Assembly (NCBI GenBank): GCA_023954495.1
Contig: JAMLIA010000026.1
Location: forward strand, 1-42,119
Reading direction: 5' to 3'
Source: Thermomicrobiales bacterium
Lineage (GTDB): Bacteria; Chloroflexota; Chloroflexia; Thermomicrobiales; CFX8
DNA: 42,119 nucleotides
The notes beneath the pieces are model-generated. The model was not told the origin of the DNA and searched no databases. It saw nothing but the letters and a program-made list of their open reading frames with translations. The translations under genes were made by a program, and so were the position numbers. Below are positions 3,413 through 37,662 of the stretch, piece after piece; the stretch's first letter is position 1, and each line of letters begins with the position of its first letter.

Positions 3413-3841
3413 TTACCCCTCAACCACAATCGTCCCGACCATGCCCTGCGCGGCGTGCTCGGTGCAGGCGTAGGTGTAGGTGCCGGGGACGGTCAGGCGC
3501 ACGTTGAAGCGTTGGCCGGGTTGGAGCAGGCCGGAGTCCCAGACGGGCGCGCGCTCCGGGAGTGCGGCCACGCCGGGGAGTTTGGTCGGATCGCAGGTCG
3601 CTGTGTGGGGGGCGCTGCCGGTCGCGAAGAAAGTGACGGTGTCGCCGACGCTGACCGTCAGATCGGCGGGATCGAACGACGGCGCATCGGTCATGTTGAT
3701 AGTGAACGCTTGCGGGCCGACTGCCGTTGGTGACGCAGATGGCGTCGCATCGTCGCCTCCTCCGCATGCCCAGACGAGCGGGGTGAGCGCCATGCCGACT
3801 GCAATTCGAACGAATGCGCGCCGATTGACCACCTGCGCCAA
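3413..3841 (-). CDS. Cupredoxin (plastocyanin-like) lipoprotein, exported
   Basis: A small blue-copper protein with the type-1 copper ligands in the expected order: His79 (SAPHTATCD), then Cys126 and His129 in YACTEH, and Met134 (QGM). It begins with a twin-arginine-like n-region (VNRRAFVR), a short hydrophobic stretch and a lipobox ending at Cys26 (LVWACGGG), followed by a Thr/Ser/Pro linker. It is therefore probably exported folded and anchored on the outer face of the membrane as an electron carrier. I chose TTG 3841 because GGAGGG (3846-3851) lies just upstream; an in-frame ATG at 3901 would add 20 residues but has no ribosome-binding site. The gene is divergent from superoxide dismutase. 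Confidence 0.85.
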   Translation of the reverse strand: MAQVVNRRAFVRIAVGMALTPLVWACGGGDDATPSASPTAVGPQAFTINMTDAPSFDPADLTVSVGDTVTFFATGSAPHTATCDPTKLPGVAALPERAPVWDSGLLQPGQRFNVRLTVPGTYTYACTEHAAQGMVGTIVVEG

Positions 3842-3934
3842 GCAACCCTCCACATCATCGACGACGTGCAAATCCTGGCAAGGATTGTGCTGTGTATCCA
3901 TCGGTCGACGTCAGCAAATGCGAAGTTTCTCGCA

Positions 3935-3963
3935 TTGCAGTTGCCGCCAAGCCCGGTTATTCT
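3935..3963 (+). promoter_or_regulatory. Candidate sigma-70 promoter for superoxide dismutase
   Basis: TTGCAG (3935-3940) and TATTCT (3958-3963) are separated by 17 bases and lie about 100 bases before the dismutase start. Each box matches the consensus only in part, so this is a candidate, not a firm call. Confidence 0.4.
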
Positions 3964-4061
3964 AGACAATAGCCGTGTGGTGTCTGCAACATGACGCCGC
4001 TGCCGATTGGCAGCACGGCCAAGAGGCATGTCGCAATCGTCCACCAGGGAGGGCGGAATCT

Positions 4062-11041: not shown

Positions 11042-13025
11042 TCAGGCGAGCGACGCGTACCACTCGCGGACAACAGCAGTGATGCCCGGGCCGTCGAGCT
11101 GGTAGTGCGCATACAGCGCTGCTGGTGGGCCGATCACTGCAAACTCGTCGTAGATGCCGTGGCGCCGCGATCCCCTCCTCGGCCAGCACCTCGGCAACTG
11201 CAGAGCCCAGCCCGCCGGTGATGTTGTGTTCCTCGACGGTGATGATCCGCCCGGTTTCGCGAGCGGCGCGGATGATGGCCTCGCGATCCAGCGGACGAAC
11301 CGTGTGCAGGTCGAGCAGGCGGCAGTCGATCCCCTCGCTCGCCAACGCCTCGACCGCCTCGACTGCTGCCGCCATCGTCAGGCCGTTCGTGATAATAGTC
11401 AGGTCGCTGCCGTCGCGATAGGTGATCGCCTTACCAAACTCAAAGTCCGGCACGCCCTCGTGGTAGACGACCGGCTCCCGGCCGCGACCGAGCCGGAAGT
11501 AGATCGGCCCCGGCCAATTGAGCGACGCTTCGATGCCGGCCTGAATCGACGGCGCATCGGCTGGGCAGAAGACGGTCAGGTTCGCCATCGTCCGGGTGAT
11601 CGACAGATCCTCCAGCGCGTGGTGGTTCGTGCCGTAATAGCCCATCGTGATGCCGGCGTGGTGGGCCAGCACGCGCACCGGCAGGTCGTTGTAGGCCAGG
11701 TCGGTGCGGATGTGCTCGGCAGCGAGCAGCGCGACGAACGCGGCGAAGGTGCCAATGAAGGGCATTTTGCCGCACGCCGCCATGCCGGCCGCGACCGAGA
11801 CCATGTTCTGTTCGGCGATGCCGACGTTGACGAAGCGCTCCGGCCACTCCTCGGCGAAGTCGCTGAGACGATTCGAGTGCTTCAGGTCGGCGGTCAACCC
11901 AACGATCTCAGGATGCTGTCCAGCCAGCCCGGCCAGTACCCGCCCGGAGACAGCCTCCGTCGTCTGTTTCGCCGAGGTTGTCAGGCTCCAGGAGCGCTTG
12001 TCGTGCAGCTCGGTTGGCGGCGCAGCGCTGGGTGGCGTAACAATCGAGACGGGCGCGGTGGCGCTGGTGCGCTCACTCGCCGGCTTCGCGCGCGCGATCG
12101 TCGCCCGCTCGGCGCGATGCTGTCGCGCCCAGTCGACGTGATCGCCGTAGGCGGGGGCCGGATCGTCGCCGACCAGCTCGGCCATCGCCCGGTCGTAGTC
12201 CTCGCCGAGTAGCAGGCCCAGGTGCCACTCCCGCGAGAGGTCCATGAACGACAGGCCGTAGCCTTTGCGCGTGTGGGCAATGATGCAGAGTGGTCGCGGG
12301 TCGGTCCGCTGATCGAGCGCGTCGAACGCATCGACCAATGCGCCGAGGTCGTGGCCGTCGATCTCCCAGACTTCCCACTTAAAGGCGCGGAACTTGTCGG
12401 CCAGCGGCTCGATCGGCATGACTTCTTCGGTGAAGCCGTCCAGCGACATCTGGTTGCGGTCGACGATGGCGACGAGATTCGAGAGCTCGAAGTTACCGGC
12501 GGCCATCATGGCCTCGTAGTTCTGACCCTCATTCATCTCGCCATCGCCGAGCAGGCAGTAGACGCGATAGTCCAGCCCGTCCATCCGCCCGGCCAGCGCC
12601 ATACCGGCCGACACTGAGAGGTTGTGGCCCAGCGAGCCGGACGAGAAGTCCGCGCCGGGGATCAGCTTCATATCGGGATGGTCGCCGAACGGGCTGCCGA
12701 CACGGGTGTAGGTATCGAGGAGCGACGGCTCGTAGTAGCCCAGATCGGCGAGCAGCGGATACTGTCCGACAGCGACGTGCCCCTTGCCGAGCACCAGGCG
12801 GTCGCGATTCTCCCAGCGTGGCTCCTCCGGTCGAATGCGCAGCGTGTGATAGTAGAGCGCCGAAAAGATCTCGGCACAGGAGAAGACGCTCGTGTAGTGC
12901 CCGCTCTTGGCAATCGCGATCAGCCGCAGCGTCTCTGTCCGCACGAACTTCGCACGGTCGGCCAACACCGCCAGCAATTGTTCGCGTCCCGCAGTGTCGG
13001 TCGTTGTAACCTGCTCGTCCCGCAT
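11042..13025 (-). CDS. Transketolase, fused N- and C-halves, interrupted by a one-base frameshift near the C-terminus
   Basis: A thiamine-diphosphate transketolase of about 660 residues. The N-half has GDGEMNEGQNYEAMMAAGNF and DRNQMSLDG (TPP/metal motif). After an Ala/Pro/Ser/Thr-rich linker (about 295-345), the C-half has the pyrimidine-domain glutamate motif VNVGIAEQNM and the C-terminal domain. The two halves are separate genes in many archaea and bacteria. The frame breaks at the CCCC run 11172-11175: removing one base gives SRRHGIYDEFAVIGPP and a stop at 11042, exactly as expected for the family. The uncorrected frame runs on to 10920 into the amidase gene. ATG 13025 has GGGAGGAAG upstream. 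It sits between the aminotransferase and amidase genes of the same operon. Confidence 0.88.
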
Positions 13026-24370: not shown

Positions 24371-25068
24371 TCCCCGATTCGGGGCATTCGGTGGACTGTC
24401 AGGCAAGAAGGGGACACTGATCCTTGCGTAGGGACAGCGCTGGCGCCAACGTTGTCGCATTAAAGAAGAGATGGCTCCGGATAGACTGATGGTGTCGAGC
24501 CGTCACCCCCAAATGTAGGGGCGTATTGCATACGCCCGTTCGGCCCTGACCCGTTCCGACCGGCAGCCACAGTGTCAGGTGCCCATCCTGGATAGTCGTG
24601 TTTCTGGCCGGGCGTATGCGATACGCCCCTACATTTGGGGGGTGGCGCGCCAACGTGGAACCTCGCGCCCAGCACGCTAATCTCCCAGCGGGAGTGATCG
24701 CCATGGCCCGGGTGCCCCCTGGGCGTTGGCTCCCCGCGATGGACGAGCCGGGGCATGTCCGAACGTTTCGGCAGCATCGACGGCCCGCTCCAAGACTGTC
24801 ACGAAATCTACACACACCGCCGTTCGCTGTTACGACAATGTCGATACCGGCCAACTATGGTTATGACGGATTGATCGACGGGGAACCCAAGCACAATGCA
24901 GCAAACCCCGCGAGCACCTGAACAACTGAGACGCAGATACAAACGGGGACAGTGGGGTCCTCACCGCCAACGCTGACAGGAGGTGCAGCTATCGCACGGA
25001 GCAACACAGCCAGCTGACACACGCTCGATACGATCCGACGTACAGACACGGACCAAGGGGGTACGACC
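24371..25068. other. 698-base intergenic region
   Basis: The region contains an inverted-repeat element (24506-24641) and no convincing gene; frames of 100-150 codons on both strands show no recognisable domain and biased composition. A good ribosome-binding-like AGGAGGTG occurs near 24980 but has no start codon at the right distance. The last 40 bases carry the AAGGGGG site of the DoxX gene. Confidence 0.6.
24506..24641. repeat. Inverted-repeat element, copy 1 (GGGCGTATTGCATACGCCC family)
   Basis: Arms 24506-24538 and 24609-24641 match at 32 of 33 positions as reverse complements, with a 70-base interior. Each arm is itself nearly palindromic around GGGCGTATTGCATACGCCC, so each can also fold alone. 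The bases following the left arm (GTTCGGCC) are nearly repeated after the right arm of copy 2 (GTTTGGCC at about 31929-31936), which suggests a common origin. Confidence 0.85.
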
Positions 25069-31223: not shown

Positions 31224-31755
31224 CTAGCGTTGGTACGGCTCTCCAACCAGCGCCGCGCCGAACGCGCCCGGATAACTGCCCGCCTCGTAGCCCATCAGCT
31301 CACGCTTGGCGACGATCTCGCCGAGATGGAAGACGTGGTGAATCGCGCACTGCACGATCGCCACGCGCAGATTGATGCCGCCGGCGCGGAACGGCGCGTA
31401 GCTGCCGTCGTACGGCAGGGTCAGATCGAGATCCGCCTCGCTGATACCCAGCAGGAACGGACGCAGGCGCTCGCGCACGCCGACGACCGCATCGCGAACC
31501 GTCGGCCAGTCATCGACCACGCCATCGCCGCCGATGCCGAAGCGCGGCGTGCTCAGCAGCGGGTCAAGTTCCATGTGCTGAGCGCTTGTTGATCCACGAG
31601 TCGATCTGAAACGTGACATGGCCAATCGTCCAGGCAAAGCAGCTACCGCCATCGAGCTGCCGCAGCATGTCCTCCGGCGCAACGTCGGCAATCGCCGCAT
31701 CCAGATCGTCCCAGGCGGTCAGCAGCAGAATGGCCGGCATCGTCGGTAGCTGCAA
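31224..31755 (-). pseudogene. DinB-like (DUF664-type) four-helix protein gene, frameshifted
   Basis: Two frames together give one DinB-fold protein of about 176 residues. The first (TTG 31755 to 31564) has LLLTAWDDLDAAIADV and FAWTIGHVTFQIDSWINKR. The second (ending at 31224) has PRFGIGGDGVVDDWPTVRDAVV and QCAIHHVFHLGEIVAKREL, with the His residues that bind metal in this family. The frame changes between about 31565 and 31590; removing one base joins the two. The total length is one base more than a multiple of three, as expected for a single insertion. TTG 31755 is supported by AAAGGAGA 5 bases upstream. DinB-like proteins include thiol-S-transferases and stress-induced proteins. It is either a recent mutation or a sequence error. 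Confidence 0.75.
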
Positions 31756-31813
31756 CGGTGTCTCCTTTGTGGTGCGTTGGCGGCTCGGCGGGTCGGGTGC
31801 CGGTTTGGCGGGT

Positions 31814-31933
31814 CAAACGGGCGTATGCAATACGCCCCTACATTGCAACATGCCCGTAACAACATTCGTGCTGTGCAGAATAACGCATCTGATGCACGCG
31901 GAACCATAGGGGCGTATTGCATACGCCCGTTTG
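31814..31933. repeat. Inverted-repeat element, copy 2 (GGGCGTATTGCATACGCCC family)
   Basis: Arms 31814-31840 and 31907-31933 are perfect 27-base reverse complements around a 66-base interior. The arms share their 19-base core with copy 1 at 24506-24641, but the interiors are unrelated by eye. It lies 58 bases upstream of the DinB-like start, in its probable promoter region. Confidence 0.88.
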
Positions 31934-32052
31934 GCCTCCGACCGAGTTAGCCGCCTGACCTGATCGCGCACACCCGCACAACACACCGCACGGCATCGTG
32001 GTATCCAACCCGTTCGCGCACGCCTACTCCACTCACACGCACTCCACCAGCA

Positions 32053-32395
32053 TCACCCAACAACTGCGAGGAAGTCGCCGGTCGGGCTGCGCTGGATCTG
32101 GCGGATGGTAGTGATTGGTGAGGCGGTCGAGCGGGCCGTAGACGCGGGAAGCGGCGGTCGGGGGTCGTCGTAGCGCACGTCGGCGGTGATGCGGGCGAGG
32201 TCGATGGTGAGCAGGATGTACGGGCGCGGGTCGGCGGTGTAGGAACGCGTTGCTGACGATGAGTACTTCTGTCCTCACCGTGGGTGAGATGCATCAGCCG
32301 TCGGCGTCAAAACGACTCGGGCAGATAGGGCTGATCGGTGGTAACGGGAGAGGAACCACGGTCAGTACTGCCAGGTGATAGGCCAGCTCGGTCAC
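32053..32395 (-). pseudogene. DUF952-family gene broken by many frame changes
   Basis: Reading across frames on the minus strand restores a DUF952 protein of about 114 residues: ELAYHLAVLT, then QPYLPESF, DADG, MHLTHG, TEVLIVSNAFLH, RPYILLTIDLARITADVRYDD, PDRRFPR, RVYGPLDRLT and RSPTGDFLAVVG. DUF952 proteins have the same order (IYH.., G(F/L)xH.(S/T), VxxVAxxF, LLxID, (F/Y)PHxYGPL). GTG 32395 has a perfect AGGAGG 5 bases upstream, so the start is intact. At least seven frame changes are needed within 343 bases, while the sense of each segment is kept. The gene cannot make its protein as it stands. DUF952 has no established function. Confidence 0.65.
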
Positions 32396-32900
32396 GATCG
32401 CCTCCTGAACGCAGACACAAAAGAGACGATCCCAACGAGCCTCTGGCTTCGACGCTATCGCAGTTGTTCGATCTAACCTTCAATCGTCCGGTTTCCTGTT
32501 CGATCGTTGATGATCTCAACTGGCACAGTGGATAAACCGTCTGTGCAACTCGTCCCCGTCTGCGTCGTCGTCACTATCGAGACAAGACCGAAGCCTGAAG
32601 TCATCGATGCGATTCGTCTCGCGGTGGTTCTGAGCGATACGGGCGCGACCGACGAATCAGTCGTCTCCGTTGCGTCGATTCCGATTAACTCATCGGGATC
32701 GTGTACGAACAATAACATCGATGTGCCCACGTGTCAACACCTTGTGCAATCCAATCTCGGAATCACGGCTTTATCAGCGCTCGTCAGTGCTATCCGGGCA
32801 ACGGTGGTGCTAGAATGAGTCCGACGTACGGGGGACGAGTATCCCCCTGTCTCCACGGGTAGACGATACACGGGCGTAATCGACCAGGGAGTTGGACAGA
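32396..32900. other. 505-base region without a supported gene
   Basis: Base composition is clearly less GC-rich here than in the neighbours. An 85-codon frame on the minus strand (32473-32730) and a 103-codon frame on the plus strand (32507-32818) overlap; neither has a ribosome-binding site or known domain. A TTGACA-N17-TATTGT promoter-like pair lies on the minus strand near 32738-32710. The last 90 bases form the leader of the 51-residue protein gene. Confidence 0.5.
32811..32847 (+). promoter_or_regulatory. Candidate -10 box and GC-rich leader hairpin upstream of the 51-residue protein
   Basis: TAGAAT (32811-32816) could serve as -10 box; no clear -35 box is seen. It is followed by a stem GGGGGA (32830-32835) / TCCCCC (32842-32847) with a 6-base loop, about 55 bases before the small gene. 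Confidence 0.3.
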
Positions 32901-33056
32901 ATGCTGACCGAGATGCGGGATCGCCTCAAGGCGCGGGTGGGAATTTACGGCACCGGCTGGAATCCCGAGTCGGTCGTCGGCCTGCTGTTGCCATTCATGT
33001 TCGTCATCATGATCGCAGTCTTCGGCTGGATGGCGATTCATATTCTCCACGGCTAG
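32901..33056 (+). CDS. Small single-helix membrane protein (51 residues)
   Basis: The ATG at 32901 opens 51 codons ending in TAG at 33054-33056. The product begins MLTEMRDRLKARVGIYGTGW (amphipathic, basic) and continues NPESVVGLLLPFMFVIMIAV, a strong transmembrane helix ending near FGWMAIHILHG. AGGGAG (32886-32891) lies 9 bases upstream. Third-position GC and the sharp helix/loop pattern support coding. No family is recognised. The next gene begins 118 bases downstream on the same strand. Confidence 0.6.
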   Translation: MLTEMRDRLKARVGIYGTGWNPESVVGLLLPFMFVIMIAVFGWMAIHILHG

Positions 33057-34311: not shown

Positions 34312-35451
34312 GTGTCCGTCAATATCTTCGACCTGATGGAGCTGGCCCGGAGCAGGCCGGCGGCAATCACCCTCGGACTGGGCGACCCGGATCTGCCGAC
34401 GCCGCCGCACATCGTCGCTGCAGCGGCTGAGGCGATCAATTCCGGCAACACCGGTCCGACGCCGCCGACTGGACTGCTGGAGCTGCGCGAAGCCATCGCC
34501 CGCAAGCTGGCGCGCGACAACGGCGTCGAGGTCGATCCGGAGACCGAGGTATTGGTGACGACCGGCGGGCAGGAGGCGCTGTTCCTGCTGGTACAGGCGC
34601 TGATCGAGCCGGGCGACGAGATCATCGTCCCCGACCCGCGCTACACGTCCTACGATGAGGCGATCGGCCTGGCGGGCGGGAAGATGGTGCTCGTTCCGAC
34701 CCATGCCGAGAGCAACTTTGCCCTCGATCCCGACGAAGTTGAGAGGCGCATCACGCCGCGTACCAAGGTGCTGCTCGTCATTTCGCCGAACAACCCGACA
34801 GCCGGCGTCAACCCGCCGGACGTGATGCAGCGGCTGGCCGAGATCGCCACGAAGCACGACCTGATCGTCGTCGCCGACGAGATCTACGAGAAGTTCGTCT
34901 ATGACGACGCCGTCCACGGCAGCATCGCATCGCTGCCGGGCATGCGCAGCCGCACGATCACGCTCAACGGCATGTCTAAGACCTACGCAATGACCGGCTG
35001 GCGGATCGGCTACCTCGCCGCACCGAGCAGCTTCATCCGGGCCGCCGCAGGCCTCAAGGAGATGGTGAACATCCAGGCACCGAGCGTCTCGCAGTGGGCC
35101 TCGGTCGCGGCGTTCAACGGACCGCAGGAGTGCGTCGAGGAGATGCGCCGGACCTACGACGAGCGCCGCAAGATGATGATGGGCGAGCTGGACCGCATGG
35201 GCATCAGCTACGGCCACCCGTACGGCGGCCTCTACATCTGGGCCAACGTCGCCAGCACCGGCCTCAGCGCGACCGAGTTCTCCTACAAGCTGCTCGACGA
35301 AGAGAACGTCCTCGTCTTGCCCGGCGATGGATTCGGCGACGGCTGGAGCGAGTGGATCCGCATGACGATCCTGCAGCCCGAAGCGACCCTCCGCGAGGTG
35401 GCGACACGGATGAGCAAGGTTGTTGAGCGGAATGCGAGCCAGGTGAGCTAA
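34312..35451 (+). CDS. Class I/II PLP aminotransferase (aspartate-aminotransferase fold)
   Basis: The 379-residue enzyme has intact active-site motifs: [26 protein letters not shown] (ring-oxygen Asn), [12 protein letters not shown] (Asp189 and Tyr192) and [18 protein letters not shown], with Schiff-base Lys223 and phosphate-binding Arg231. The C-terminal substrate-carboxylate Arg is probably in EWIRMTIL. Substrate range is open; aspartate, alanine/valine or methionine-type transaminases have this form. GTG 34312 follows GGAGAAGG. Its stop codon overlaps the end of the convergent queC gene by 3 bases. It pairs with the lysine-less homologue directly upstream. Confidence 0.92.
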
Positions 35452-36142
35452 CGTCCCACCAGCGCCGGATCATCCAGCCCCGCTTCGGCGAAGCCGCGGG
35501 CGCGCAGGAGGCAGGCGTCGCAGGCACCGCAGGGCGTGCCGTCCGGGGCGGGTCGCAGCAGGAGACGGTCAGGCCGTAGTCCACGCCCAGCTCGACGCCG
35601 CGCTGGATGATGCCGGCTTTGGTCAGCTCCATGAGCGGGGTGTGAATCGTCAGGTGCTGTGTGCCCTCGACACCTGCCTTCGTCGCCAGATTGGCCATCG
35701 TCTCGTAGGCGCGGATGTATTCCGGGCGGCAGTCCGGGTAGCCGGAGTAGTCGAGCGCATTGACGCCGATGAAGATGTCGGACGCACCCAGCACCTCCGC
35801 CCAGGCCAGGGCGAAGGAGAGGAAGATCGTGTTGCGGGCCGGGACGTAGGTAATCGGGATGTCGCCGCCGACGCTCTTGGCGTCGCGCCCCTTCGGCACG
35901 TCGATGTCCGCCGTCAGCGCCGAGCCGCCGAACGTGCGCAGGTCGATGTCGGCGATGATGTGCTCGGCGACGCCCTGCGCGTCTGCGACTCGCCGTGCTG
36001 CCGCCAGCTCCGCCTCGTGGCGCTGGCCGTAGCGGAAGGACAGCGCATACGGCACAAAGCCCTCAGCCTTCGCGATCGCCAGGCAGGTCGTCGAATCTAG
36101 CCCGCCGGAGAGCAGCACTACCGCGCGTCGTTCGTCTGTCAT
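35448..36142 (-). CDS. queC: 7-cyano-7-deazaguanine synthase, frameshifted near the C-terminus
   Basis: QueC makes preQ0, the precursor of queuosine, from 7-carboxy-7-deazaguanine and ammonia. The PP-loop ATP motif is [46 protein letters not shown] and [17 protein letters not shown] follow as in the family. After SCCDP the frame is lost near 35545-35552, within a G/C run. Restoring one base gives [19 protein letters not shown], with the zinc cysteines, and a stop at 35448. The total length is one base short of a multiple of three. Uncorrected, the frame reads on to 35264. ATG 36142 has GGGAGA and overlaps the malQ stop (ATGA). Confidence 0.9.
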
Positions 36143-37662
36143 CCGTTCTCCCATGTCCCTTGTCGTCCGTAGAGCACCGTCAGGTCGCGCAGCCACTCGG
36201 CGCGATCGGGATCGAGCGCGTCGGCATCCATCTGCCAGCCCCAGTTGCCGGCGGCTTCGCCCGGCACGTTCATGCGCGCCTCGCTGCCGAGGGCCAGCAC
36301 GTCCTGGAATGGCACGATCGCGAGCTGGGCGGTCGAGCGATAGGCGGCGCGAATCAGATCCCGGGCGATGTCGTCGCCACTGACTGAAAGATAGCGCCGA
36401 ACGTGGTCGCCGGTGCGGTCATCAAGCGTTGCGTACCAGCCGAGCGTCGTGTCGTTGTCGTGCGTGCCGGTGTAGACGACGGTGTCGCGCACGAGATTGT
36501 GCGGCAGATAGAGATTGTCCGCGCCGGAGCCGAAGGCGAACTGCAGCACGCTCATGCCGGGGAAACCGGCGGCGAGGCGCAATGCGTCGACATCCGGCGT
36601 GATGACGCCGAGGTCTTCGGCGACGATCGGCAGCGTACCCTCTGGTGCCAGTGCGGCGCGTACCGCGTCGAACAGCGCGATGCCCGGCCCCGGCTGCCAG
36701 GTGCCACTGATGGCGGTCGGTGCGTCGGCCGGCACCGACCAGTAGGCGGCGAACCCGCGGAAGTGATCGATCCGCGCGATGTCGACGAGCCGGAAGGTGG
36801 CCCGAAAGCGCTCGACCCACCAGCTGAAGCCATCGCTTTGCATCCGCTCCCAGTCGTAGAGCGGATTGCCCCACAGCTGGCCGGTGGCGCTGAAGTAGTC
36901 TGGCGGGACACCGGCAACCTGCGTGCGGTTCCCGCGCGCATCGAGCTGAAACAGGTCGCGGTTGGCCCAGACATCGGCGCTGTCATAGGCGACGAAGATG
37001 GGGATGTCACCGAAGATTTCGACGCCGCGCTCGTTGGCGTACTGCTTCAGGTCGCGCCACTGGCGATCGAAGATGAACTGCGCGAAGTCGTGGGCGGCGA
37101 TGCTGTCGGCCAGACGCGCGCGCGCCTCGGCCAGCGCCAGCGGGTCGCGTAGTCGCAGCGGCTCCGGCCAGTCGATCCACCACGTCTGCTGCTCGTCGTG
37201 CAGCGCCATGAACAGGCTGTAGTCAGCCAGCCAGTGCTCCTGCTCGTGGCGGAATGCTGCCAGCTCGGCGTGGAGTGGCGAGGATGGCGTGGCCGACAAG
37301 CGTTCGGCTGCCAGCCGCAGCGCCGCAGCGCGCGCGTGGCGGGTCGTATCGGCGTCGGGAGATTGCGTCACTTCGGTGAGGTCGCTGGGCTGTAGCAGCC
37401 CGTCGTTGACCAGGCGGTTGAGCGCGACGAGATCGGGATTGCCGGCGAAGGCGGAAAAAGCCGAGTAGGGTGAGTTCCCCACGCCGGTCGGGCCGAGCGG
37501 CAGGATCTGCCAGCGCGTCTGCCCAGCAGCCACGAGCCAGTCGACGAAGCGGTAGGCACTGTCGCCGAGGTCGCCGATCCCGCCCGCGCCCGGCAGGCTG
37601 GTCGGGTGCAGCAGAATACCGGCGTGCCGCAACGGCGGTCGTCGTGCGAAATCGTCAGCCAT
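36139..37662 (-). CDS. malQ: 4-alpha-glucanotransferase (amylomaltase, GH77)
   Basis: A 507-residue cytoplasmic enzyme that transfers maltodextrin chains between glucans. N-terminus [19 protein letters not shown] and [20 protein letters not shown] are hallmark segments. The GH77 catalytic residues are the Asp nucleophile of [10 protein letters not shown], Glu of [15 protein letters not shown] and Asp of [12 protein letters not shown]. Length matches the family. ATG 37662 is preferred, about 10 bases after GGGGAG; the frame opens at 37695. Its last codons overlap the start of queC by 4 bases, so a glycogen enzyme and a tRNA-modification enzyme share one message. No other glycogen genes are in the window. 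Confidence 0.95.

Follow-up and report, generated by a model that had tools for sequence, protein, structure and literature searches.

A gene of the DUF952 family (PF06108) in the draft genome of a Thermomicrobiales bacterium is assembled as about ten in-frame pieces, and this damage very likely reflects a local fault of sequence quality, that is, patches of poor consensus in a draft assembly, the gene itself being probably ordinary and intact in the living organism. Of the three explanations that the original prediction had offered, a local sequence-quality problem is the one that fits best, whereas a burst of slippage and an unusual decoding are both disfavoured.

The window, meaning the whole stretch of 42,119 nucleotides that was analysed, is contig C26 of this genome (G000, a 3.36-Mb draft in 152 contigs), and G001, of the same genus, is the nearest relative compared. 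The features of the window discussed below are the following:

32056..32395, minus strand: DUF952 (PF06108) gene in about ten in-frame pieces, placed by frame-tolerant alignment to the intact syntenic orthologue of G001
31224..31755, minus strand: DinB-like gene, downstream of the DUF952 gene, with one frame change near 31580
31811..31936, no strand assigned: inverted-repeat element with 30-nt arms 66 nt apart, between both broken genes
32901..33056, plus strand: intact gene of 51 amino acids, upstream, bounding the damaged stretch on that side
35264..36196, minus strand: QueC, with one frame change near 35548
11054..13025, minus strand: transketolase, with one frame change near 11165, close to the C-terminus

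The broken DUF952 gene

Read from the sequence, the start codon of the DUF952 gene is the GTG at 32395 on the minus strand, and just 5' of it lies the motif AGGAGG, which we take to be the ribosome site. Frame-tolerant protein-to-DNA alignment to the G001 orthologue finds nine frame changes at penalties of -9 and -12, a number to be taken as an estimate because the alignment method alone can add up to about three, with ten changes at -6 and six, accompanied by one stop, at -16. The original prediction had counted at least seven, in agreement with all of these penalties except the strictest. In its nine-change version the alignment runs from end to end without any stop and with 60 of the 103 compared residues identical to G001, so that the sense is indeed preserved across the fragments, as had been claimed. 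Against 25 other DUF952 proteins, all single-frame sequences from other genera, alignment of the window copy requires between 3 and 13 frame changes; as a control, the intact G001 gene gets none with 19 of these 25 proteins, and one to three with the remaining six.

The assignment to DUF952 also stands, since the alignment score against G001 is 264, compared with a mean of 29.3 and a maximum of 50 for 200 mononucleotide shuffles and with a maximum of 57 among 346 further tiles of 470 bases from both strands of the window, and since the gene is intact on contig C296 of G001, where it is flanked by the same genes. The protein encoded there reaches 57.3 bits against PF06108, for which the cut-off is 23.7. 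Read through its frame changes, the window copy scores 60 to 253 against the 25 other members of the family, the weakest of these scores (60, for L001) resting on 44 shared columns only. Alignment to intact orthologues, which had been suggested as a check, thus succeeds with G001 and the 25 others once frame changes are allowed. A six-frame search of G000 with PF06108 gives no single-frame match at E <= 0.001, and with the G001 protein as query the DUF952 place is the sole match, obtained in two overlapping pieces.

Across the 61 genomes searched, G000 being counted among them, DUF952 matches were obtained in 27, of which 26 show a single-frame gene and one (G010) a two-piece gene; the family was not found in the other 34, G000 included and many of them incomplete. 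In G010, which belongs to the same order, the gene at C17:62698-62948 (L027, L028) consists of two pieces in different frames. A comparison of window positions 31940-32520 with plasmid records gave no match.

According to the available part of PMC7955679, DUF952 is assigned by Pfam to the ADP-ribosyltransferase clan. The solved DUF952 chains of Caulobacter CC0527 (PDB 2o0p and 2o0q, also 2jqn) match the intact G001 orthologue weakly (E 0.0016-0.0018) and carry the annotation 'hypothetical protein'. Unlike CC0527, the window copy has no single open frame.

Decay and conserved sense

Does the broken copy represent an ordinary, long-standing pseudogene? Its many frame changes, and the fact that no single frame of G000 matches the DUF952 family, are consistent with such a history, which nevertheless appears very unlikely given how little the similarity to other members has suffered. 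Over the columns aligned in both, identities to the 25 DUF952 proteins amount to 1029 of 2282 for the read-through and 999 of 2282 for the intact G001 protein, in a relative-rate test in which the freedom of the alignment to pick frames slightly favours the broken copy. Similarity to the family is thus undiminished, and the excess amino-acid change expected of a gradually decaying pseudogene is not found.

The same history fares no better in simulations, in which nine random indels and neutral substitutions were introduced into the G001 DUF952 gene (200 runs each) and the products scored against the G002 protein, with G001 as an approximate stand-in for the ancestor before damage. The observed score was reached in 14% of the runs with no substitution, in 2% of those with nine, and in 0 of 200 with each of 27, 45, 90 or 180 substitutions, so that simulated decay with at least three substitutions per indel fails to account for the present copy. 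On this sequence evidence, the gene shows no visible decay, which supports the earlier view that indels had occurred there without the usual substitutions.

Codon positions 1, 2 and 3 of the DUF952 copy differ from G001 at 29.4, 16.5 and 41.2% (85 codons), compared with 15.4, 12.4 and 39.1% for the DinB-like gene. Against the reading as error stand this high rate of difference at the first position and the fact that the read-through is less similar to G001 (58%) than the neighbours are (77-90%). The DUF952 proteins of G001 and G002, however, have themselves only 51 of 88 residues in common (58%), so that the family may simply evolve fast, which would account for the weaker contrast between codon positions.

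Damaged genes elsewhere in the genome

Other genes of the window are affected by single frame changes. The DinB-like gene, a name that we give by resemblance, keeps 132 of 171 to 135 of 176 residues identical to the G001 orthologue across both sides of its frame change, and a Pfam search of its larger piece gave no match. In QueC, the frame change puts the cysteine-rich C-terminal end out of frame: the Pfam match ends at profile position 186 of 210, and the G002 orthologue carries on in another frame at 79% identity. Transketolase, with its Transketolase_N, Transket_pyr and Transketolase_C domains, lacks a few residues beside its frame change, and 123 of 141 residues are identical to the G001 frame across both sides. 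The 51-amino-acid gene is free of frame changes, with 45 of 50 residues identical to G001. Changes at window positions 3831-4042 were considered as a second patch and dropped, as they lie 5' of the superoxide dismutase domains, in sequence that may be non-coding; those near 25025 and 32894 also lie 5' of gene starts.

The clearest case, and the strongest sign of a damaged stretch, lies on another contig of G000, where C11:28325-31365 (L276:3325-6365) holds about 40 frame changes in about 3 kb, across a gamma-glutamyltransferase gene and a MutS gene. In the former, about 20 changes fall in the second part and none in roughly the first 630 bases, one further change sits just before the gene start, and the preceding frame of 854 amino acids has none. 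In the latter, the first 70% of the gene holds about 20 and the final 750 bases hold one. The edges of this patch are abrupt, lying in mid-gene at both ends with clean sequence on either side. Within the MutS part, differences from G001 affect 13.8% of first, 12.1% of second and 52.1% of third codon positions (478 codons), a contrast through which purifying selection is visible despite the damage. Elsewhere in G000, an aldehyde dehydrogenase gene carries one frame change, and a CNNM-type transporter gene three in its first part, with up to three more before its likely start. G001 appears to be without the gamma-glutamyltransferase gene, which adjoins MutS in both G000 and G003.

Frame changes that leave the sense of a protein in place might also suggest a programmed or otherwise unusual decoding, with ribosomes switching frame many times within DUF952, as the original prediction had envisaged. 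The sense kept across the DUF952 frame changes would agree with it, but the G001 gene is one open frame, the 25 compared proteins come from single frames, and the C11 patch stops in mid-gene in unrelated genes. Nor are the frame changes kept in orthologues, as is looked for in programmed frameshifting, 26 of the 61 genomes having a single-frame gene. Since neighbouring genes keep the ordinary frame, as do even the remaining halves of the affected genes, such a decoding is so improbable that it can practically be dismissed.

To what extent does G000 exceed its relatives in this respect? Frame changes were counted by one frame-tolerant method with a flank rule, using queries from other genomes only (G000 being excluded as a source) and covering five stretches of G000 (122 kb). 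For G000, this gave 24 changes within aligned genes totalling 70.5 kb, spread over 10 of 69 genes and with DUF952 outside the 24, compared with five in 63.7 kb for G001, four in 68.3 kb for G002, two in 50.4 kb for G003 and three in 70.8 kb for G004, or 14 in 253 kb for the four relatives pooled. Sixteen of the 24 fall in the single C11 stretch; outside it, G000 has eight in about 69 kb, a rate of 1.2 per 10 kb that is only a little above the 0.40-0.79 of the relatives, which tells against the reading as error. Conserved genes unrelated to DUF952 are therefore damaged in this assembly above the level of the relatives, mostly through the C11 patch. When broken G000 frames served as queries, the counts of the relatives were inflated (0.24-1.01 per 10 kb, against 3.87 in G000).

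A stop-to-stop tblastn scan found four distinct sites in the 109.8 kb of G000 that it covered, three of them in the window, and none in 30.9 kb of G005 or 46.1 kb of G006; it lends weak support, because close relatives were compared mainly for the window. A Viterbi model of codon usage that allowed for frame shifts, applied to the window plus 400 kb of G000 (442 kb), was set aside, its calls being nearly as frequent in controls (16.6 and 18.8 per 100 kb in G000, against 13.5 and 11.0 in two control genomes).

Sequencing fault or mutation

The position of the changes relative to homopolymer runs was considered for 50 of them, in DUF952 and in the gamma-glutamyltransferase and MutS genes of C11. 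Eight of the 50 lie at most six bases from a run of at least four equal bases, where about four are expected from random codons, and 25 lie near a run of at least three, where about 23 are expected; by these figures, the burst of slippage first proposed is somewhat disfavoured. Counts of DNA gaps were discarded as a homopolymer test, being too noisy: in the clean part of the gamma-glutamyltransferase gene, 605 bases yielded 16 gaps of a single base.

Slippage could also have acted over the whole genome, had mismatch repair been lost with the broken C11 MutS, leaving replication slippage unchecked and shifting frames genome-wide. The approximately 20 frame changes in the assembled C11 MutS, together with the mild excess near runs of at least four, speak for such a loss. 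However, 42 of the 50 changes lie away from these runs, the changes sit in dense patches, and the breaks in MutS seem to belong to a patch extending over the adjoining gene as well. Moreover, another MutS, on contig C36 (L287:8872 onward), is intact, with 862 codons open. With most changes off long runs and the C36 gene intact, slippage after MutS loss is highly unlikely. We asked whether the C36 MutS might be the C11 gene in an undamaged, duplicated form, but with 387 of 798 residues identical the two have diverged, and C36 carries a second gene in its own right. Because this second gene is intact, the organism might be able to do without the broken one on C11, a point against the reading as error.

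A local sequence-quality problem fits best because a dense patch and single changes hit unrelated genes, and because the patch begins and ends inside genes. These abrupt edges, the absence of visible amino-acid decay and the weak tie to homopolymers agree better with uncorrected reads or gap fill than with mutation, and we infer that the cause lies in sequencing or assembly. The assembled DUF952 sequence would then contain a patch in which single-base insertions and deletions had escaped correction, and the consensus in such patches may rest on few or error-prone reads, or on gap fill. Frame-breaking indel errors are described for draft assemblies in the available parts of PMC12007338, PMC8812927 and PMC9262707, the last two of which, as far as their available parts go, give homopolymer error as the usual signature of long reads. 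The low concentration of the present changes in homopolymer runs, where long reads usually err, stands against the reading as error. As in the indel-error assemblies described in the available parts of PMC12007338 and PMC8812927, the frames of conserved genes are broken while their sense is kept and the relatives are intact; unlike in those assemblies, the indels occur here in patches and not mainly in homopolymers. A literature search on gap filling and frameshifts in metagenome bins found no paper.

Clustering, and indels without visible amino-acid decay, would also result from a genuine burst of indel mutation in the very recent past, arising from a mutational shower or from error-prone break repair and destroying DUF952 and the C11 stretch before substitutions set in. 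Loss of DUF952 may moreover be tolerable, the gene not being found in 34 of the 61 genomes, many of them incomplete. Such a burst is nonetheless unlikely, as it needs at least two separate events in G000 as well as single hits in the conserved QueC, transketolase and aldehyde dehydrogenase genes, and the patch edges lie in mid-gene. That the patches are real in a broader sense, marking a Chloroflexota lineage with localized showers of single-base indels over hundreds of bases to 3 kb that leave protein sense almost unchanged, is decidedly unlikely.

With patches of poor consensus as the favoured reading, calls of gene absence or of pseudogenes in G000 cannot be trusted without the reads, which concerns DUF952, one of the two MutS genes, gamma-glutamyltransferase, QueC and the DinB-like gene. 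The completeness (96.45%) and contamination (2.72%) of the genome give no sign of the damage in either figure.

The GGGCGTATTGCATACGCCC-type inverted-repeat element that lies between the two broken genes has two copies in the window, at 24519-24628 and 31811-31936, and among the loci fetched, exact matches of the GGGCGTATTGCATACGCCC type also occur in other contigs of G000 and in G007 and G011, which belong to the same order.
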